From: Natrinema ejinorense
GTDB lineage: Archaea > Halobacteriota > Halobacteria > Halobacteriales > Natrialbaceae
Length of the DNA: 64,000 nt
NCBI RefSeq assembly: GCF_002494345.1
Contig: NZ_NXNI01000001.1
Span: 372,001 to 436,000, forward strand
Direction: 5' to 3'
Below, one piece after another: positions 8,806 to 54,278 of this stretch (within the stretch, counting starts at the first letter, position 1; each line of letters starts with the position of its first letter). Position numbers and translations under genes: made by a program. The notes beneath the pieces are model-generated. The model saw nothing but the letters and a program-made list of their open reading frames with translations. It was not told the DNA's origin and did no database searches.

Positions 8806-9816
8806 ATGATTTCGGACGCTCGAGCCCTCCGCCCTTCTCATATCCCGAGTGACCTCTACCATCGGGATGCGAAAATTGAACAGTTGGCCGACGCACTCCG
8901 GCCCATTGCGGACGGAGACACCGGAGAGAACGTGATCATCTTCGGTCCGAGCGGGACGGGGAAGACGACTCTCTCGAGGTTCGTCGTTCGCGAACTCGAG
9001 CACGAGACGCTCGATTTCCGCTGGGGCTACCATAACTGTATCTCCGGTTCATCAAAAGCCGAAGTTCTCTATGGAGTCATGCGCGATGCGGATTTGGGGG
9101 CGGATCTCAAAAAGATTGGATCACCGACGAGCGCATTTATAGATCGACTCCGTGAGAGCGACAAGCGAATCGTCGCGATTGTCGACGAGGTCGACGTGAT
9201 CGAGGACGATACGACGCTACAGGCACTCATCGATATTCCGAATGTGACGATCGTTGCGATCACGATTGACGAGGACGACCTCTTTGCCCACTTCGACTCT
9301 CGCGTTCGCAGTCGACTCCGGAGCGCAGAGACGATCACGCTGGATCGGTTCACCCACGCGCAACTGGTTGATATCCTTCAGGCGCGGATCCAAGCCGGAT
9401 TGCGCCCTGGGACGATCTCGAGCGACGCGATCGACAGTATCGCTGATATCGCTGCGGGAGACGCTCGTGAAGCCATCGGGATACTCCGGAGTGCAGCGCG
9501 AGCTATCTCGAGAGATGGCGATCGATCCCAGATCACTGTCGAGGTCGTCGACGATAACCGGACAGCGGCTCTCGAGGAGATCCACCTCGAACGTGTCGAG
9601 GATCTCGGCACACACAAGCGCCTGCTATACGATATCATCGAAGCCTCGGGGAAGGTTCCTAGTACAGAGCTGCACGATGCCTACGAACAGCGGGCACAGA
9701 ATACGAAGGCGAAGAGCACCCGACGACGGTACCTTACGAACCTTGAGGAAAAGTACGGACTAATCGAATCGAACGGAAACGGGAAAGGGAAGGTCTACGC
9801 TGTCCCCGACTTCTGA
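8806..9816 (+). CDS. orc1/cdc6: Orc1/Cdc6 replication initiator (replicon A)
   Basis: 336 residues. AAA+ ATPase: Walker A FGPSGTGKTT (about 45-54), Walker B IVDEVDV (about 125), sensor region around ITIDEDDLFAHF, then a lid and a C-terminal winged helix (SGKVPSTELHDAYEQRA). It is shorter than chromosomal Orc1 proteins and typical of plasmid or provirus initiators. Start ATG 8806 with DARALRPSHIPSDLYHRD is standard for the family. A close paralogue lies at 49042-50052 in the same orientation. It should bind repeats next to itself and load MCM. Confidence 0.9.
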   Translation: MISDARALRPSHIPSDLYHRDAKIEQLADALRPIADGDTGENVIIFGPSGTGKTTLSRFVVRELEHETLDFRWGYHNCISGSSKAEVLYGVMRDADLGADLKKIGSPTSAFIDRLRESDKRIVAIVDEVDVIEDDTTLQALIDIPNVTIVAITIDEDDLFAHFDSRVRSRLRSAETITLDRFTHAQLVDILQARIQAGLRPGTISSDAIDSIADIAAGDAREAIGILRSAARAISRDGDRSQITVEVVDDNRTAALEEIHLERVEDLGTHKRLLYDIIEASGKVPSTELHDAYEQRAQNTKAKSTRRRYLTNLEEKYGLIESNGNGKGKVYAVPDF

Positions 9817-9957
9817 GCTTTCCGTTCGTTCCGTTCGTTTTCCGTTCACTGGTGTAGAGGCTCTGCCTCTCCAGTTATTGGCTTCGAGAGCTATTTTCGC
9901 CCATTTTCCGTTCACCTCCGCTCTGGACTTATCTACGGCTGTGATCTTCATTCGCTC
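9817..9957. promoter_or_regulatory. CCGTTC-repeat region, possible origin iterons
   Basis: Directly after orc lie repeated TTCCGTTC/CCGTTCGT units (9822-9851) and another TTTTCCGTTC at about 9904-9913, then CTTATC some 30 bp before the next ATG (leaderless-type promoter). The same units recur around 53854-53876 and 53939-53950 in replicon B. A role as Orc-binding origin or as promoter element is inferred. Confidence 0.4.
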
Positions 9958-10239
9958 ATGTCTGTCCAAGCAGACCGTTCAAGGTCGAGTGAATCACGAT
10001 TGAGTAGGAAACTCGAGGATGGCCGAGTCGTCGACATCGAGATCACTGGATCGCCGGAGAACAAGAAGCGGATCGATGTTCGCGTCGAGCGTGGGCGGCA
10101 CTGGGTATTTGCAGTCCAGAATCAAACCGCTGGGCTGATAATGACGCTGAACGCGGACGGGCAGCGCGTTGATGACGAGATTCCCAGCTGGCTCGAGCCG
10201 TTACTCCGACAGATCGGACTCGAGGGGGTCGAGAAATGA
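9958..10239 (+). CDS. conserved partner gene downstream of orc
   Basis: 93 residues with no domain I recognise. It has a beta-rich core (RVVDIEITGSPENKKRIDVR, then RHWVFAVQNQTAGLI) and a C-terminal helix (PSWLEPLLRQIGLEGVE). The paralogue at 53992-54264 keeps the same core and the same position after orc, so the pair is probably a replication or maintenance unit of this element family. Confidence 0.7.
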   Translation: MSVQADRSRSSESRLSRKLEDGRVVDIEITGSPENKKRIDVRVERGRHWVFAVQNQTAGLIMTLNADGQRVDDEIPSWLEPLLRQIGLEGVEK

Positions 10240-10241
10240 GC

Positions 10242-47159: not shown

Positions 47160-48068
47160 ATGGTACAACGAGCGAATATGAACGAAACCGGTTTCTATGG
47201 CGACGACTGGTTAGGAATTGAGTGGAGCCCGTGGCTCTCCCTCGCTCGGGCGGACGGAGACTTAGGGACGATCTCGAGTGATCCGGGACTGTACCGAGTG
47301 CGTCATCAGGAACGGGATGGACTCGAGTACATCGGCGAAACTGGGCGGAGTACACGCGGGCGAGTAGGCTCGCTCGCTCGAGGAACGTACGCGGAAGAGA
47401 TGCCGTATCGAGATCCCCATACAGCTGCACCGTGTCTATGGGCTGTCCATGACCGATACGGACCGGAGTTCGAGGTTTCATACGCGGTTCCGTCAGAGGC
47501 GAAAGACAAGCAGGAGCGGAAAGCGATCGAAGCCGCTTTGATCGCCGTTGCTCGCCGAGAGATGGGCGAAAGTCCGACAGCGAACTTCGGCCGGATAATC
47601 GACGGCTACAAGCAGTCGAGTTACAGTAAGGACGAGATCGTCGGTGGGCCGCTGTCGGAAGACGAGACTGAATCAAACACCGAGAATGGGCGCGGGCCAG
47701 TCCCTTGGGAGAACGTTAACGAAGTAACTGGCTCCAACTGGATGGGTCTCGAATGGTCCGAACCCTACTTCCTCAAGAATCGGCTCGCTGTAGATCCACC
47801 AGATAACGGGCTGTACCGTATCTGGTATGGATCAAACTCACCGCCACTCGCATACATTGGAGAGTCTAGCAATATTTCGTCACGGCTCTATAACCACGAA
47901 AAGACGTTTGGCGGCGATGCGCTCTTTTCCTACGTCAATCGGCCAGAACTTGATGCAGCTCATAAGCGTCAGGAGATCGAGACTGATCTAATAGGAGTAC
48001 ATTATCTGGAAAATGGAGAAGCTCCAATTGCTCAGTTTGGGTACGAGGAACAGCTTCAAGAAATCTAG
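47160..48068 (+). CDS. tandem double GIY-YIG nuclease-like protein
   Basis: 302 residues with two related halves. Half 1: GLYRVRHQ ... LEYIGETG then RVGSL, with ERKAIEAALIAVARREMGES and PTANFG. Half 2: GLYRIWYG ... LAYIGESS then SSRLYNH, with KRQEIETDLIGVHYLENGEA and PIAQFG. Each keeps the GLY-YIG pair, the Arg and a helix Glu; the final Asn is replaced by Gln in half 2. GIY-YIG enzymes usually carry one domain and dimerise; here two are fused. Role inferred: DNA cleavage, perhaps restriction. Confidence 0.65.
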   Translation: MVQRANMNETGFYGDDWLGIEWSPWLSLARADGDLGTISSDPGLYRVRHQERDGLEYIGETGRSTRGRVGSLARGTYAEEMPYRDPHTAAPCLWAVHDRYGPEFEVSYAVPSEAKDKQERKAIEAALIAVARREMGESPTANFGRIIDGYKQSSYSKDEIVGGPLSEDETESNTENGRGPVPWENVNEVTGSNWMGLEWSEPYFLKNRLAVDPPDNGLYRIWYGSNSPPLAYIGESSNISSRLYNHEKTFGGDALFSYVNRPELDAAHKRQEIETDLIGVHYLENGEAPIAQFGYEEQLQEI

Positions 48069-48206: not shown

Positions 48207-48950
48207 TCAATGGTCTTCCCACAACTTCTTTAATTTCCTGCATCTAGTCCCCAAAATATCCATGGCGTGTATAAAAATAGAGAACCCAAATATAATCATG
48301 GCTGGATAGGTAAATTCTTCTAATAATATAATTGAATTGTTTATTAGAGTGGGTAGACTTTCTATAACATTATTTGCTTCTTCCAACTGTTGTAGTGTAT
48401 ATCTCCTCTTCAACCATGCCCGGATATTTGGAAATAGATAGTGGGATATACTTGACACCAAGAAAACAGAAATCAATTTCTGCAACAATTGATCCGCTAT
48501 TACAGGAGACAGACGATTTTTGATAAAGTCATATCCCTCATAAAGTGCCATCAGTAGTAGGGTTATCACGAAAAAACTCCAAATGATAGAAACTTCTTGC
48601 GGATCCTTAATTACGATTCTAGATAAAGAGTATAGCAGGAATAGGAACGATATTAAGAACAAGGTTATAAGAGCGTTATTAAGGCGAAAGATCTCCTCTG
48701 GGTTTATTATATCAGATAGTGATTTCATTATCCCTAAAGCAACTAATCCTGTTATCAAAAGGGAAGAAACAAGACCTAGTTGAATATAGGATTCATCAAC
48801 TGTTTCTGAGGGTAAACGGGATATGTAAACAGAAAGTGCAGCGAAAACACCCATGACTGTAAATAAATCACTGTTCTCGCTTATAAATGATCGAAACCGT
48901 ATATCCTCTCGGTTCCTTTGATGAGGATTATCGTCAGCCTTAGACTTCAT
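48207..48950 (-). CDS. multi-TM membrane protein
   Basis: 247 residues, five to six TMs (TVMGVFAALSVYISRL, LGLVSSLLITGLVALGI, LITLFLISFLFLLYSLS, SIIWSFFVITLLLMALY, FTYPAMIIFGFSIFIHAM). Very AT-rich, clearly foreign. No recognised family. Confidence 0.55.
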   Translation of the reverse strand: MKSKADDNPHQRNREDIRFRSFISENSDLFTVMGVFAALSVYISRLPSETVDESYIQLGLVSSLLITGLVALGIMKSLSDIINPEEIFRLNNALITLFLISFLFLLYSLSRIVIKDPQEVSIIWSFFVITLLLMALYEGYDFIKNRLSPVIADQLLQKLISVFLVSSISHYLFPNIRAWLKRRYTLQQLEEANNVIESLPTLINNSIILLEEFTYPAMIIFGFSIFIHAMDILGTRCRKLKKLWEDH

Positions 48951-49041: not shown

Positions 49042-50052
49042 ATGATTGCTAACGCTCGAGCCCTCCGCCCGTCCCACATCCCGAGTGATCTCTACCACCG
49101 GGATGCGAAGATCAGGCAGTTGGCTGACGCCCTCGAGCCGATCGCAGATGGGGATACCGGCGAGAACACACTCATTTTCGGCCCGAGCGGGACAGGGAAA
49201 ACAACGCTCGCTCGCTTCGTCGTGCGCGAGTTCGAGCGGGAGACGCTCGACCTCCGCTGGGGCTATCACAACTGCATCTCCGGCTCGTCGAAGTCCGAAG
49301 TTCTATTCGGCATCATGCGCGACGCCGGTCTCGGAGCGGATCTTCGGAAAACCGGTTCGCCGACGAGTTCGTTTCTCGATCGGCTCCGCGAGAGTGACAG
49401 GCGCGTCGTCGTGATCATCGACGAGGTCGATGTCCTCGAGGATGACACGACACTCCAGGCGCTCTACGAGATTCCGAACGTGACAATTGTCGCGATTACG
49501 ATCGACGAAGACGATCTCTTCGCACATCTCGACAGTCGAGTTCAAAGTCGATTCCGCAGCGCCGAGACGATCCACCTCGAGCGGTTCACGCACAACCAGC
49601 TTGTCGACATCCTCCAAGCTCGCATCCGCGCGGGGCTTCGACCGGGGACGATCTCGAGCGACGCGATCGACTACATCGCCGATGTCGCTGCAGGAGACGC
49701 ACGTGAGGCGATCGGCATTCTCCGGAGTGGTGCGCGGGCCGTCTCGAAGGATGACGATCTCTCCAAGATCACGGTCGAAGTCGTCGACGACAACCGGACG
49801 GCGGCTCGCGAGGAGATCCACCTCGAGCGGGTCGAAGATCTCGGAACGCACAAGCGTCTGCTGTACGATATCATCGAAGCTGCGGGCGAAGTGCCTGGGA
49901 CGGAACTCCACGGGACCTACGAGCAGCGCTCTCAGAACCCGAAAGCTAAATCGACTCGGCGGAAGTATCTCAAGAACCTCGAGGAGAAGTATGGTCTGAT
50001 CGAATCGAACGGCAACGGTCGAGCGAAGGTCTACGCTGTCCCCGGCTTCTGA
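49042..50052 (+). CDS. orc1/cdc6: Orc1/Cdc6 replication initiator (replicon B)
   Basis: 336 residues, same length as and very similar to 8806-9816. Walker A FGPSGTGKTT, Walker B IIDEVDVLE, ITIDEDDLFAHL, and the C-terminal winged helix (AGEVPGTELHGTYEQRS). Downstream in replicon A lie CCGTTC repeats and the partner gene; here that region is interrupted by 50068-53600. Confidence 0.9.
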   Translation: MIANARALRPSHIPSDLYHRDAKIRQLADALEPIADGDTGENTLIFGPSGTGKTTLARFVVREFERETLDLRWGYHNCISGSSKSEVLFGIMRDAGLGADLRKTGSPTSSFLDRLRESDRRVVVIIDEVDVLEDDTTLQALYEIPNVTIVAITIDEDDLFAHLDSRVQSRFRSAETIHLERFTHNQLVDILQARIRAGLRPGTISSDAIDYIADVAAGDAREAIGILRSGARAVSKDDDLSKITVEVVDDNRTAAREEIHLERVEDLGTHKRLLYDIIEAAGEVPGTELHGTYEQRSQNPKAKSTRRKYLKNLEEKYGLIESNGNGRAKVYAVPGF

Positions 50053-50067
50053 ATTTCCCGCTCGTTC

Positions 50068-50386
50068 GGCTTTGTTGAAAACATCACTAAATGACAGTTT
50101 CGACACCCTCAGCGGCAAGTACAGGAGAAGACGTTACCAAAGCGGTGATCTATAACTTTGATATCTGACATAAGCAGTATGGTTAATATAGAGAATGAAT
50201 GCAGTAAACCGATGCCGTTTCTTCCAAATAATCTGTGCAAAATCAACAGATCAATAGAGTTGCGAAACCATTTTTTGCCGAGGAGGGTTTCCTCGCTCCC
50301 TCGACGGATGCTCCGGTGCTATCTCTGGCCTACACTAACTACTAACAGGCCAGAATGTGGCAAACATTTAGTACTTCAACAAAACC
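50068..50386. mobile_element. 319-bp MITE-like element
   Basis: Ends GGCTTTGTTGAA (50068-50079) and TTCAACAAAACC (50375-50386) are inverted with one mismatch; similarity continues inward (ACTAAATG on the left, CATTTAGT on the right). No transposase inside. It begins within the CCGTTC-like sequence right after orc. Typical of a non-autonomous derivative of a haloarchaeal insertion sequence; parent family not determined. Confidence 0.65.
50261..50322. repeat. direct repeat, left copy, flanking the two-gene cassette
   Basis: TGCGAAACCATTTTTTGCCG, then AGGAGGGTTTCCTCGCTC. A diverged copy lies at 53609-53667 after the cassette. The GGAGG...CCTC part can form a hairpin. Confidence 0.55.
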
Positions 50387-50398
50387 ATCATTCTTTAA

Positions 50399-51565
50399 TT
50401 GATGGGTGGTAATATCGATCTAAGAAGAATGGCTTCTCTCAGACAACCTTCTATCTCAAGTTTACGGTTATTGAGTTCCTTTGTAATCGGATTCGGTACT
50501 CTCATTCTAATTGTCTCCCTTCTGCTGATCACGCTAAACCAGGTTTTCGCCGTCAATTGGCAGATTATTTTACTGTTTGTTGCTGCTTCCGCCATTCTTG
50601 TATTAGGAATACTCTGGTACGGAGGTATTTTCATATCTCCTTGGTCACTACGATTAAGAACGGTATACAGGAAATACAGACATTTTGGGGCTTTATCTCT
50701 ACTTAGTGTAATTAAATCCCGTAGACGTCGAAGTATGGAATTTATGAAAGGTATTTTATTGGTTATCACAGTGCTCATCGCAGGGATCTTCATCGGCTTC
50801 ATTCACTCATCTCTTTCAGAAGAGGTTCCATTCAATATCTCTGGTAGTGTACTCGGAACTACATGGCAGGTACACGCAGTTATCATCGGATTCAGCTTCG
50901 TTGCTCTAACTTTCGTCTGGGAAGAGATCTACGGCAACTCACTTAACAATGAACTCACAAGATTATTTGTAGAAGATATCGGTTCTATCTGGACAGTCAC
51001 CTTCGTCTTCGGCGCTAACCTAGTAATCGGAGCTATCGCCTTCACACACTCTTCAGTTGAAACCGCAGAGTTCCTACCAATCTACACTACTGCAGTACTA
51101 TTCACGGCATCAATATTGACTGTGGCAAAACGGTTCTTAGACGCATTGGATCTCTTGTTCTACACCGATTTAGATGGAAAAGTCAAGAACTTTGCAAAGG
51201 AAGATTTAGAGAAAGAGATCATAAGCACCTCTTCGACTCCAAACCAGGTTCTCGCGGAGTCTGTACCCGGATTTGATCAAGTCTCGATGCGTCTCCCCAA
51301 TTTCGGCTTAGAGAGGATCATTGTTTCCTCAAAAGATATCGATAAGAGAGGGACTGTGTCCGACATCAACTTGCGGAGGATGTACAAAATCTCAGAGATC
51401 GTTAATCAGGATGCCACGGCCAGTATCGATCAAAATCCAACTATAGATATGACACTGGCTGAAGATACCACTGTGATCTCTCTGGACGGCGATCTATCCA
51501 AAGAGCAACTTGAACAGATTGAAAGACAACTACGCCGGGGAATCCGGACACGAGGTGGGAACTGA
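50399..51565 (+). CDS. six-TM membrane protein of a two-gene cassette
   Basis: 388 residues (ATG 50402 also possible). TMs: FVIGFGTLILIVSLLLIT, IILLFVAASAILVLGILW, ILLVITVLIAGIFIGFI, AVIIGFSFVALTFVWEE, TVTFVFGANLVIGAIAF, LPIYTTAVLFTASILTV. A cytoplasmic C-terminal domain of about 140 residues follows. Its stop overlaps the next ATG by one base. AT-rich. Membrane sensor or pore coupled to the 656-aa partner is the inference; the topology recalls DUF2254-like proteins, but I am not sure. Confidence 0.6.
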   Translation: MMGGNIDLRRMASLRQPSISSLRLLSSFVIGFGTLILIVSLLLITLNQVFAVNWQIILLFVAASAILVLGILWYGGIFISPWSLRLRTVYRKYRHFGALSLLSVIKSRRRRSMEFMKGILLVITVLIAGIFIGFIHSSLSEEVPFNISGSVLGTTWQVHAVIIGFSFVALTFVWEEIYGNSLNNELTRLFVEDIGSIWTVTFVFGANLVIGAIAFTHSSVETAEFLPIYTTAVLFTASILTVAKRFLDALDLLFYTDLDGKVKNFAKEDLEKEIISTSSTPNQVLAESVPGFDQVSMRLPNFGLERIIVSSKDIDKRGTVSDINLRRMYKISEIVNQDATASIDQNPTIDMTLAEDTTVISLDGDLSKEQLEQIERQLRRGIRTRGGN

Positions 51566-53535
51566 TGCCGAACTATGAAGACTACCTCGAACACTTCTTC
51601 GAGAAAGCAGAGACCTCTATCCGAGAAGGAAAAGGTCAGGAACTCACCGATAACCTCTCTCACCTCGCAGAATTGATCCAAAAATTGATTGACAAGGAGA
51701 CGGTTTTAGAAGGACAATTCAGGGCGGACTATAGATTCTGCAAACGTCGATACATCCGACTATATAACAACATCCTTGACAATGGTGCTGATGAAGACCT
51801 GAGAGAAACCGTCATTAACTCAATCTCAGCCGAGGCCAATTACGCCCGGCAAGCAAACGATCGAGACGCCTTTGATCAACTGCTTAACGCTCTTACCAGT
51901 TGCTACGTAAGCTCATACCCTAAACCAGGGTTTGACGACGCAATCGAGCAGTTTTTTGAGAGATACAACACCCTCCAATATGGAATAGCGCAGAACTTCC
52001 AGGATGCCGACAATGTAGAACAATTAGCAAAGAGTAGAGAGATCATCGAAACTCTCCTTGAATACTACCGTGAGATTTGGCGGTACTCTGTTGAATACGA
52101 ATGTAAGGACTCAATCAAGAGGCTGCATAACAATCTGACCGACGTACGAGCCTTCGAAAGATTTCGATACTCACATACAGGCGTCCCCTCAGATGGAAAC
52201 GCTCAGGATATCCTGGCTGTAAAGCAAAAGCTCGCTAACACATTCCGGAAGTGTATTCAAATCCAGAAATTTGCTGCATATTCTTGGGCATATAAACTCT
52301 ACGCAGAAGACGTTTACTCCGACAAAAACTTCATTCAAACCCTATACCGGGATTACGCGGAGAAGAATTTCTCATCCATCAAATCCCTATCAGAGACCTA
52401 TTTCGAGATCGGATCCGTCTTAGACCAAGACCCTTACTGGGAAAACTGGGAGACCAGCAGACAGCTCCAAAATGCAGTCGGTCCTATTATGACTTCTATG
52501 GGAACCAATACATGGGTTCCAAAATTCTACCTAGCCTTCTCACTCTACCTATTTGATGAAAATACTCAGGACCGCTTTTCAAATTCTACACCCGAAGAAG
52601 TGCCTATTCCAGCCGGAAGACAATACCGTAGAGATCTCAATAGCCTCCACGACAAGGTGCAGGAATTTAAAGACGACTACCTGCTGGACTTTCTTTTAGA
52701 TAGCCATGTAGATCTCGATAAGCGGGTAGAGATCCTCTCTAAAACCTTTGATCAAGCACACTCACACGCAGAAAAGCAGGCAATAATGCGGGTACGTAAC
52801 CATCAAATTGAACCAGAGTATCTCGACTCTTGGGAAGAGCAAATAAACGATCAGTTCGATAGTTCCTCCCTGTTGAGACAGGGACTCAAAGAAGCCGGCT
52901 TACTTCGCGAGAAGCCTTTTCCTCCGAATATTGATGGAATTAGGGTGTCAGCAATCTATCCACCAAAACGGATGTTTGTACCAGAGGAAGGGGTGAGTAA
53001 ACCGATCACAACCACTTTTCGTGGAGTCTTCGATAGGTACAATGAATACGTTTTGAGGAGGCTGACCTTAGAAGAACATAACGTCGACAGTATTGATGAG
53101 TTGCTCAACGAAATAGAGGATCAAGTCCGAAAGCGAGATGCGTCAGTAATCCTCCTGCAAACGGGCGAACATCGGAGAAGGCTTTTAGATGACGACAGGT
53201 TCGCACACGACGGAGATATCTCCCATTCCCACCACTCATTTTTGGATATACCCATCCTCACTGAACCCACAGACACCTACACCGCACTCCTGCTCTTAGA
53301 GAATGAAAGCCGGGGTGTAGAGTTCGTAGACGGGGACGGGCAAGCACTGGACGTAAAAGCCGCCCCCGGAGAAGAAACAGCTGTACTCGATATGTCGAAC
53401 GAACCTCTAGAATCTATTCCATACAAGCAAGCGCCTCATGACTACGTAGAACTTGATATACGGCTTCGAGGATTCATACAGAGCAAGGAACTTGACGGGG
53501 TGCTTTTCCATCTAGATCCTGAAGCGCACGATTAG
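51565..53535 (+). CDS. 656-aa helical cytosolic protein of a two-gene cassette
   Basis: No TM. Residues 1-400 are almost entirely helical (EDYLEHFFEKAETSIREGKG, then YRFCKRRYIRLYNN). The C-terminal about 200 residues are mixed alpha/beta (GIRVSAIYPPKRMFVPEEGV, VLLQTGEHRR-like). No enzyme motif recognised. One-base overlap with the membrane protein implies coexpression. Both genes lie inside an insertion in the orc-downstream region of replicon B. Confidence 0.55.
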   Translation: MPNYEDYLEHFFEKAETSIREGKGQELTDNLSHLAELIQKLIDKETVLEGQFRADYRFCKRRYIRLYNNILDNGADEDLRETVINSISAEANYARQANDRDAFDQLLNALTSCYVSSYPKPGFDDAIEQFFERYNTLQYGIAQNFQDADNVEQLAKSREIIETLLEYYREIWRYSVEYECKDSIKRLHNNLTDVRAFERFRYSHTGVPSDGNAQDILAVKQKLANTFRKCIQIQKFAAYSWAYKLYAEDVYSDKNFIQTLYRDYAEKNFSSIKSLSETYFEIGSVLDQDPYWENWETSRQLQNAVGPIMTSMGTNTWVPKFYLAFSLYLFDENTQDRFSNSTPEEVPIPAGRQYRRDLNSLHDKVQEFKDDYLLDFLLDSHVDLDKRVEILSKTFDQAHSHAEKQAIMRVRNHQIEPEYLDSWEEQINDQFDSSSLLRQGLKEAGLLREKPFPPNIDGIRVSAIYPPKRMFVPEEGVSKPITTTFRGVFDRYNEYVLRRLTLEEHNVDSIDELLNEIEDQVRKRDASVILLQTGEHRRRLLDDDRFAHDGDISHSHHSFLDIPILTEPTDTYTALLLLENESRGVEFVDGDGQALDVKAAPGEETAVLDMSNEPLESIPYKQAPHDYVELDIRLRGFIQSKELDGVLFHLDPEAHD

Positions 53536-53608
53536 TGCTCATCAGATCTGTTGTACCCAGAAACGCCAGTCACACCTCAGAAATAATCACATACCAACGT
53601 GTGTACGC

Positions 53609-53667
53609 TGCGAAACCATTTTTGCCAGGAAGTTCCTCGCTCGCACGGTGGATTCCCCGGGCTATCT
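53609..53667. repeat. direct repeat, right copy, flanking the two-gene cassette
   Basis: TGCGAAACCATTTTTGCCAG then GAAGTTCCTCGCTCGCACGG. Same orientation as 50261-50322. Confidence 0.55.
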
Positions 53668-53853
53668 TATTAGCCCGCATCGAGTGATCCGGTTGCTTCA
53701 GTATGAACTCAGCCCTGTGCGAGATGCGCCCTCTATTCAGTACTGTTCGCCGGAAGTCATCTGAAATTGGCAGGTTCCTCAGTGGTCAATTCGCATCCCT
53801 CAGCGACCAACTGTTTTGTACAAGGACTTATTTGATGAGTAAGATTTCAATAG

Positions 53854-53953
53854 AACCGTTCGTTCCGTTCGCTTTCCGCTATCCACAGTAGAGCGTTTGT
53901 AGCGTCCGATATTATACGCAAGAGTCGATATTGGTGATTTTCCGTTCGTCTCC
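53854..53953. promoter_or_regulatory. CCGTTC-repeat region of replicon B
   Basis: Repeats of CCGTTCGTT/TTTCCGTTCG matching 9822-9913 of replicon A. Here they are about 3.8 kb from orc because of the insertion. Origin or promoter function inferred. Confidence 0.4.
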
Positions 53954-53991
53954 GCCCTTCACTTATCGCAAACTGTGACCTTCTCTCGCTC

Positions 53992-54264
53992 ATGTCCATT
54001 CGACAACTCGACTCGAATGCAGATGAGCCCCGGTTGCAGACCGATCTCGAGGATGGGCGGACCGTCGATGTCGAGATTACGGGCTCGCCGAGCAACAAGA
54101 AGCGGATCGACGTGTGCGTCGAAGGTGGCCCGCGCTGGGTCTTTGCCGTGGAGGATCGAACTGCCGGCCTGATCGAACTCCACGGCGAAGGGTACACCGA
54201 CGAGATCCCGACCTGGCTCGAGCCGATGCTGCAGCGGATCGGACTGGAGGGGATCGAGGCGTGA
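53992..54264 (+). CDS. conserved partner gene of orc (replicon B)
   Basis: 90 residues, paralogue of 9958-10239: shared RTVDVEITGSPSNKKRIDV core, WVFAVEDRTAGLI and the C-terminal PTWLEPMLQRIGLEGIE helix. Its leaderless-type promoter (CACTTATC) is retained. Confidence 0.7.
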   Translation: MSIRQLDSNADEPRLQTDLEDGRTVDVEITGSPSNKKRIDVCVEGGPRWVFAVEDRTAGLIELHGEGYTDEIPTWLEPMLQRIGLEGIEA

Positions 54265-54278
54265 GCGTTGCGTCTTCG

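Follow-up and report, generated by a model that had tools for sequence, protein, structure and literature searches.

An undescribed mobile family of membrane-anchored proteins in haloarchaea, represented by an AT-rich gene pair beside an orc gene of Natrinema ejinorense

Two adjoining AT-rich genes lie between an orc1/cdc6-type initiator gene and its small partner gene in Natrinema ejinorense. What are they, how did they come to this site, and what may they do for the DNA that carries them? We analysed the 64,000-nucleotide stretch that contains them (hereafter the window; G000:C1:372001-436000, on the 4.0-Mb first contig). A sequence-only reading had proposed an undescribed defence or competition module, made of a membrane sensor or pore and a large cytosolic partner. 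The features are collected in Table 1.

Table 1. Features of the window (positions in its own numbering) and of related loci (L numbers)
Feature	Position or locus	Strand	Basis
Membrane protein gene, six TM segments and ~130-aa C-terminal soluble domain	50429..51565	+	ORF, hydropathy, conserved start Met, Ka/Ks 0.11-0.21
Gene of 656-aa protein without TM segments	51565..53535	+	hmmsearch with profile A2; colinear with last ~660 residues of fused relatives; Ka/Ks 0.10-0.22
TGATG stop-start overlap	51563..51567	+	TGA/ATG junction the same in 6/6 close pairs
Promoter-like TCATTCTTTAA, ~30 nt before start codon	50388..50398	+	Common to L072, L073, L011; looser in L012, L070
Left target-site duplication GCTCGTTC	50060..50067	.	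7/8 vs 53858-53865
Left terminal inverted repeat GGCTTTGTTGAAAA	50068..50081	+	10/14 vs right end; exactly at replicon A homology break
Right terminal inverted repeat ATTTCAATAGAACC	53844..53857	-	10/14 vs left end
Right target-site duplication GTTCGTTC	53858..53865	.	7/8 vs 50060-50067
MITE-like segment GGCTTTGTTGAA ... TTCAACAAAACC, inner inverted copy TTCAACAAAACC at 50377-50388	50068..50388	.	Sequence and motif scan
Diverged 64-bp direct repeat, left copy	50261..50324	+	81% vs 53609-53667
Diverged direct repeat, right copy	53609..53667	+	81% vs 50261-50324
orc1/cdc6-type initiator, host gene left of insertion, outside cassette	49042..50052	+	TIGR02928 2e-50; 84% identical paralogue at 8806-9816
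90-aa orc partner gene, right of insertion, outside cassette	53992..54264	+	66% identical paralogue at 10012-10233
Other AT-rich insertion in orc-partner gap, 759 bp	L117:1054-1811
Other AT-rich insertion in orc-partner gap, 1.18 kb	L120:321-1503
Split pairs	Window, L011, L012, L070, L072, L073, L020, L048, L082, L083
Pairs split ~90 residues further along	L019, L078
Fused chains, ~1015-1105 aa	L021, L023, L024, L026, L071, L074, L075, L043, L081
Fused, middle soluble domain missing, ~850 aa	L076, L077, L079
Chains of ~750 aa without final ~250 residues	L027, L084, L085, L086, L088/L106
Neighbour: type III restriction-modification	L021
Neighbour: HmaB-like methylase (MTase)	L012
Neighbour: OLD/GajA-like	L072
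Neighbour: HKD-Snf2	L073
Neighbours: Dcm and BrxH-like (BrxH/Drm-like)	L027
Neighbours: MkoA- and TmtA-like	L085
Neighbours: Mrr-like	L074, L079
Neighbour: ZacB, weak match	L081

We compared the window with itself and found that 8806-9831 aligned with 49042-50067, and 9822-10241 with 53856-54266. From the breaks in this comparison at the paralogous orc-partner unit (replicon A, 8.8-10.2 kb), the extra DNA in replicon B spans about 50068-53857 (~3.8 kb). The orc-partner gap was 141 bp in the clear cases among replicon A-type sibling loci of other genomes. The insert was absent from all 5 closest orc loci (82-84% identity), and the same-species genome G199 had replicon A only, the pair not being found there. 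Replicon A has a single CCGTTCGTTC run, and replicon B has one on either side of the insert. The insert has a GC content of 45%, compared with 60% for orc and likewise for the DNA past the insert. These results confirm the earlier description of an AT-rich pair that interrupts a 141-bp stretch and splits the replicon A repeats to either side, and the comparison with the empty site placed the break at 50067/53856.

The orc regions of haloarchaea are known for their mobility, with transposases or integrases flanking them (PMC3528665), which fits the insertion of a cassette beside orc. The same orc-partner gap held other AT-rich (45% GC) insertions at two more distant orc loci, each in another genome, so it may tolerate insertions. 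In the window, a divergent gene for a 247-aa AT-rich (~36% GC) multi-TM protein flanks orc opposite the cassette (48207-48950, minus strand); the protein had near-zero relatives in the plasmid collection, with a single weak partial match of 44% on pHLAC01. A 302-aa GIY-YIG-like protein is encoded at 47160-48068 (plus strand). Haloarchaeal plasmids carry relatives of it, as do plasmids of the cyanobacteria Tolypothrix and Microchaete and of Salinibacter at 26-37% identity; judging from these relatives, this is a cross-domain mobile gene.

The insert ends in terminal inverted repeats flanked by an 8-bp duplication, and replicon A has one run like GCTCGTTC/GTTCGTTC at the insertion point. Among 300,000 random boundary pairs, none equalled both scores. 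The duplication alone would be weak, because the iteron-like CGTTC repeats of the site could cause part of the similarity between the flanks; the ends are credible since it coincides with the inverted repeats and the homology break. The direct repeats that had been thought to bracket the pair do exist, with no third copy in the genome; they were dropped as element ends in favour of the boundaries at 50068 and 53857. Likewise, a MITE-like unit is present on the left as proposed, and it is single-copy in the genome. A similar inverted repeat brackets a 4.4-kb unit in L020 (G044), with a ACCTGATT/ACCTAATT duplication (7/8). The ends resemble what we take to be IS6-type termini by the look of their repeats and duplication. 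Thus the inverted repeats and duplication of an IS/MITE-type unit were present at the insertion, and its own transposase was absent: only the two genes were found between the ends. The best explanation is that the insert is a non-autonomous transposon-like cassette with its own promoter and one operon. Separately, a ~50-nt element TATTCAGCACG...TTGAGGGTTTCAACARAGCC recurred near members L020, L024, L073, L081 and L086 and in the same islands, and none of the 20 control regions had it. It is probably an IS/MITE terminus.

The two open reading frames bear out the earlier description of a six-TM protein and a 656-aa protein overlapping by one base. The six hydrophobic segments of the first agree with six TM helices in the hydropathy analysis. 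Its longest frame has 388 aa from TTG 50399, and the start is probably Met 50429, because close relatives begin there and have TCATTCTTTAA in common upstream. This motif is kept in relatives although the wider flanks differ. The TGATG overlap suggests translational coupling, and other split pairs have a stop-start overlap of 1 or 4 nt. Both genes are under purifying selection, with Ka/Ks of 0.10-0.22 in all four comparisons. Together with the conserved junction and promoter, this indicates that the proteins are kept for function. A recent frameshift as the cause of the split was ruled out by the conserved overlaps and the purifying selection in close pairs. A barrel-sandwich-type domain closing the membrane protein was set aside as unproven, its PDB match being weak (thymidine phosphorylase, E 0.58). 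An HK97-capsid-like C-terminal region, suggested by eye, was rejected: it reached 0.1% with hhalign against 26 haloviral MCPs and had no PDB match.

Neither protein had a match above cut-off in Pfam or NCBIfam, a PADLOC component model at E ≤ 1, or a match in the PDB sequence search. Our genome search initially gave distant partial matches, and plasmids yielded the close full pairs. With the profile of the second protein we found matches in 29 Halobacteriales genomes out of 392, spread over 21 of 95 genera, and a phylum-wide search with the membrane profile gave nothing convincing beyond Halobacteriales. Viral-contig and phage collections contained no relatives except one provirus contig. The closest pairs are those of Haloarcula sp. 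SYNS111 plasmid NZ_CP119795.1 (WP_276278776 / WP_276278777) and Halorubrum lacusprofundi pHLAC01 (WP_012660087 / WP_012660086). Both have the two genes and the same TGATG junction, with 58-69% full-length identity to the window pair; however, their flanks are unrelated, and they are annotated only as hypothetical proteins. The AAA ATPase adjoining the H. lacusprofundi pair was ruled out as a third component, because the transferred unit in common with L070 stops before it.

Many relatives are single chains. A 1049-aa relative on Natronosalvus amylolyticus plasmid NZ_CP101159.1 has the order of the window pair, from TM region through soluble domain to long C-terminal region, but it is one gene with ~16-19% identity to the window proteins and adjoins a type III R-M system. 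On the tree, members must have changed between the split and the fused form at least two to three times, and the different split site of L019 and L078 is an additional independent event. Because fused, split and truncated forms of one colinear chain exist, the two halves form one functional unit. Our sequence comparisons thus show that both products belong to a single colinear family of membrane-anchored proteins, each being one half. The supposed sensor or pore with a partner is indeed a membrane protein with a large cytosolic partner; given the many fused relatives, it is better regarded as one membrane-anchored protein split in two. A toxin-antitoxin operon, with small toxin and small neutraliser as separate units, does not describe 388 and 656 aa that form one chain in many relatives.

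Does the cassette move by itself? L072 and L073, from different taxonomic families, have exactly 3,608 bp in common at 94%, comprising the pair only. L012 and L070 have 3.56 kb in common, and L023 and L024 have 4.3 kb, namely the fused gene with a convergent integrase. The taxonomic family label changed 16 times on the 28-row tree against 15.6 for shuffled labels, so the tree ignores taxonomy. At the level of DNA comparison, these results show that the cassette moves alone, between haloarchaeal families. The two proteins were found together mainly on plasmids, in islands and beside integrases rather than in conserved chromosomal settings, and siblings of the replicon lacked the pair rather than having it as core genes. 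PLSDB scored the plasmid members as non-mobilizable. One member was in a tailed provirus: the IMG/VR contig with this truncated-type protein of ~740 aa also carries baseplate and clamp-loader genes, and is therefore real. In this provirus (L106; 4329-5264, 6001-8226), a gene for a subtilisin-like protease lies upstream of the family member. A 1274-aa ATP-binding protein with near-identical starts was observed at L011:16468-20292 and L168:1083-4907, on plasmids of Haloarcula SYNS111 and Halorubrum hochsteinianum. It adjoins an annotated VirB4 in L011, and the L168 copy matched mad8 of PADLOC weakly. The family is real, undescribed and mobile, and is without a name or model.

To learn what the family may do, we inspected its neighbours. 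Restriction- or nuclease-type genes lay within ~10 kb at 9 of 27 loci, a count without a matched control. A control was available for the largest neighbour: from each of 20 regions picked arbitrarily in the same genomes we took the largest plausible ORF, and, with T4SS/HerA-type ATPases and a TnpB set aside in the tally, one was a clear defence match (GajB-like) and another a marginal one (SMC-like), hence 1-2 of 20. By the same rule, at least 6 of 27 family loci had a defence-like match, and the excess was not significant. The H. lacusprofundi copy is carried by the megaplasmid pHLAC01, which has several defence systems, and strain ACAM34_UNSW, which lost pHLAC01, is virus-sensitive (PMC10544981). 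Since that strain also lost its sole CRISPR locus and further systems (PMC10544981), this is only consistent with the defence idea. Against a defence role we counted the lack of any PADLOC, Pfam, NCBIfam or PDB match and of catalytic-looking conserved residues or an enzyme motif in the family. Thus, of the module proposed earlier, the inserted, undescribed membrane and cytosolic pair stands; its function in defence or competition gained neither a database match nor a significant neighbour excess. Our best guess from these patterns is a role against viruses or mobile elements as a membrane-acting conflict module, which could equally well prove right or wrong. Everything past a mobile, selected family of two halves of one membrane protein is inference.

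The module may instead serve the carrying plasmid, integrative element or provirus and not the cell, for example by excluding related conjugative elements or superinfecting viruses at entry or at the surface. We consider such competition between elements unlikely. T4SS-type genes adjoin the pair in L011 (VirB4) and L020 (TraD/VirB4-like ATPases), with homologues adjoining L075, and the provirus member and the integrase-only units of L023 and L024 agree with it. However, no T4SS was found near most loci, the cytosolic half of 650 aa is big for an exclusion protein, and the PLSDB scores count against it.

The membrane core offers a further clue. We aligned the fused-family profile with haloarchaeal DUF2254-like proteins, and the two match colinearly across the TM core and into part of the soluble region, with an hhalign probability of 94.7%. 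The reversed profile gave 0.9%, column shuffles ≤0.1%, and 25 other multi-TM neighbours ≤6.7%. PF10011 (DUF2254) itself matched neither the window proteins (E ≤ 1) nor the relatives (E ≤ 5). Since single-sequence comparisons are weak, the link is one of remote kinship and not of membership; compared with PF10011 and the haloarchaeal DUF2254-like proteins (~480-730 aa), the family has its own soluble domain and a region of ~650 aa. We know of no function on record for DUF2254, a widespread uncharacterised membrane family. In L089-L105, haloarchaeal PF10011 matches cover no more than roughly the first 170 of the 368 profile positions, followed by long soluble regions of their own; these DUF2254-like proteins are a separate uncharacterised family whose layout resembles that of the present one.

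This kinship, to proteins not known as defence proteins, would suit a sensor- or channel-like membrane protein for osmotic or envelope stress that is on mobile DNA by chance. The empty defence-library search and the ordinary purifying selection would suit it as well. However, a very patchy distribution, complete mixing of families and recurrent restriction or nuclease neighbours are unusual for housekeeping, and we regard such a role in membrane physiology as rather improbable. That an IS-like element acquired a pair useless to its host would accord with the IS-like ends and the missing transposase, but is very improbable given the Ka/Ks values in 4/4 comparisons and the conserved junction and promoter.

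We return to the defence role and how it might work. The coupled genes would give a 1:1 complex. The first protein, with six TM helices, cytosolic N and C termini, a remotely DUF2254-like core and a short soluble domain, would anchor the second protein, which is long and probably consists largely of helices, to the inner face of the membrane. As cargo of plasmids, integrative elements and proviruses, the module would act against viruses or mobile elements: the cytosolic half may detect an intruder or intracellular damage. The membrane half might then disturb the membrane in an abortive response, which is somewhat unlikely, or block further DNA entry by exclusion, which seems less likely still. 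Zorya and membrane-acting abortive systems are alike by analogy only, having a membrane part and a large cytosolic part and lying in islands. However, there was no PADLOC sequence match, and no nuclease, ATPase or peptidoglycan-binding domain turned up in the family.

Tentatively, and with the chances somewhat against it, the family may be a new haloarchaeal immune family, in which a DUF2254-like membrane core is permanently coupled to a large cytosolic sensor, fused or split. It would spread in the form of a minimal cassette, of transposon or integrase type, and act at the membrane. Annotated defence systems are mostly from bacteria and archaeal-specific ones are few; if this is true, the family would be among the few archaeal-specific membrane immune systems. 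It is present in ~7% of sampled Halobacteriales genomes, yet nameless and without a model. The fused and split forms imply that the two proteins work jointly as a single machine, and the DUF2254 link would offer that uncharacterised membrane family a testable role. Because the moving cassette is near-minimal, it can be cloned and tested in a single step.
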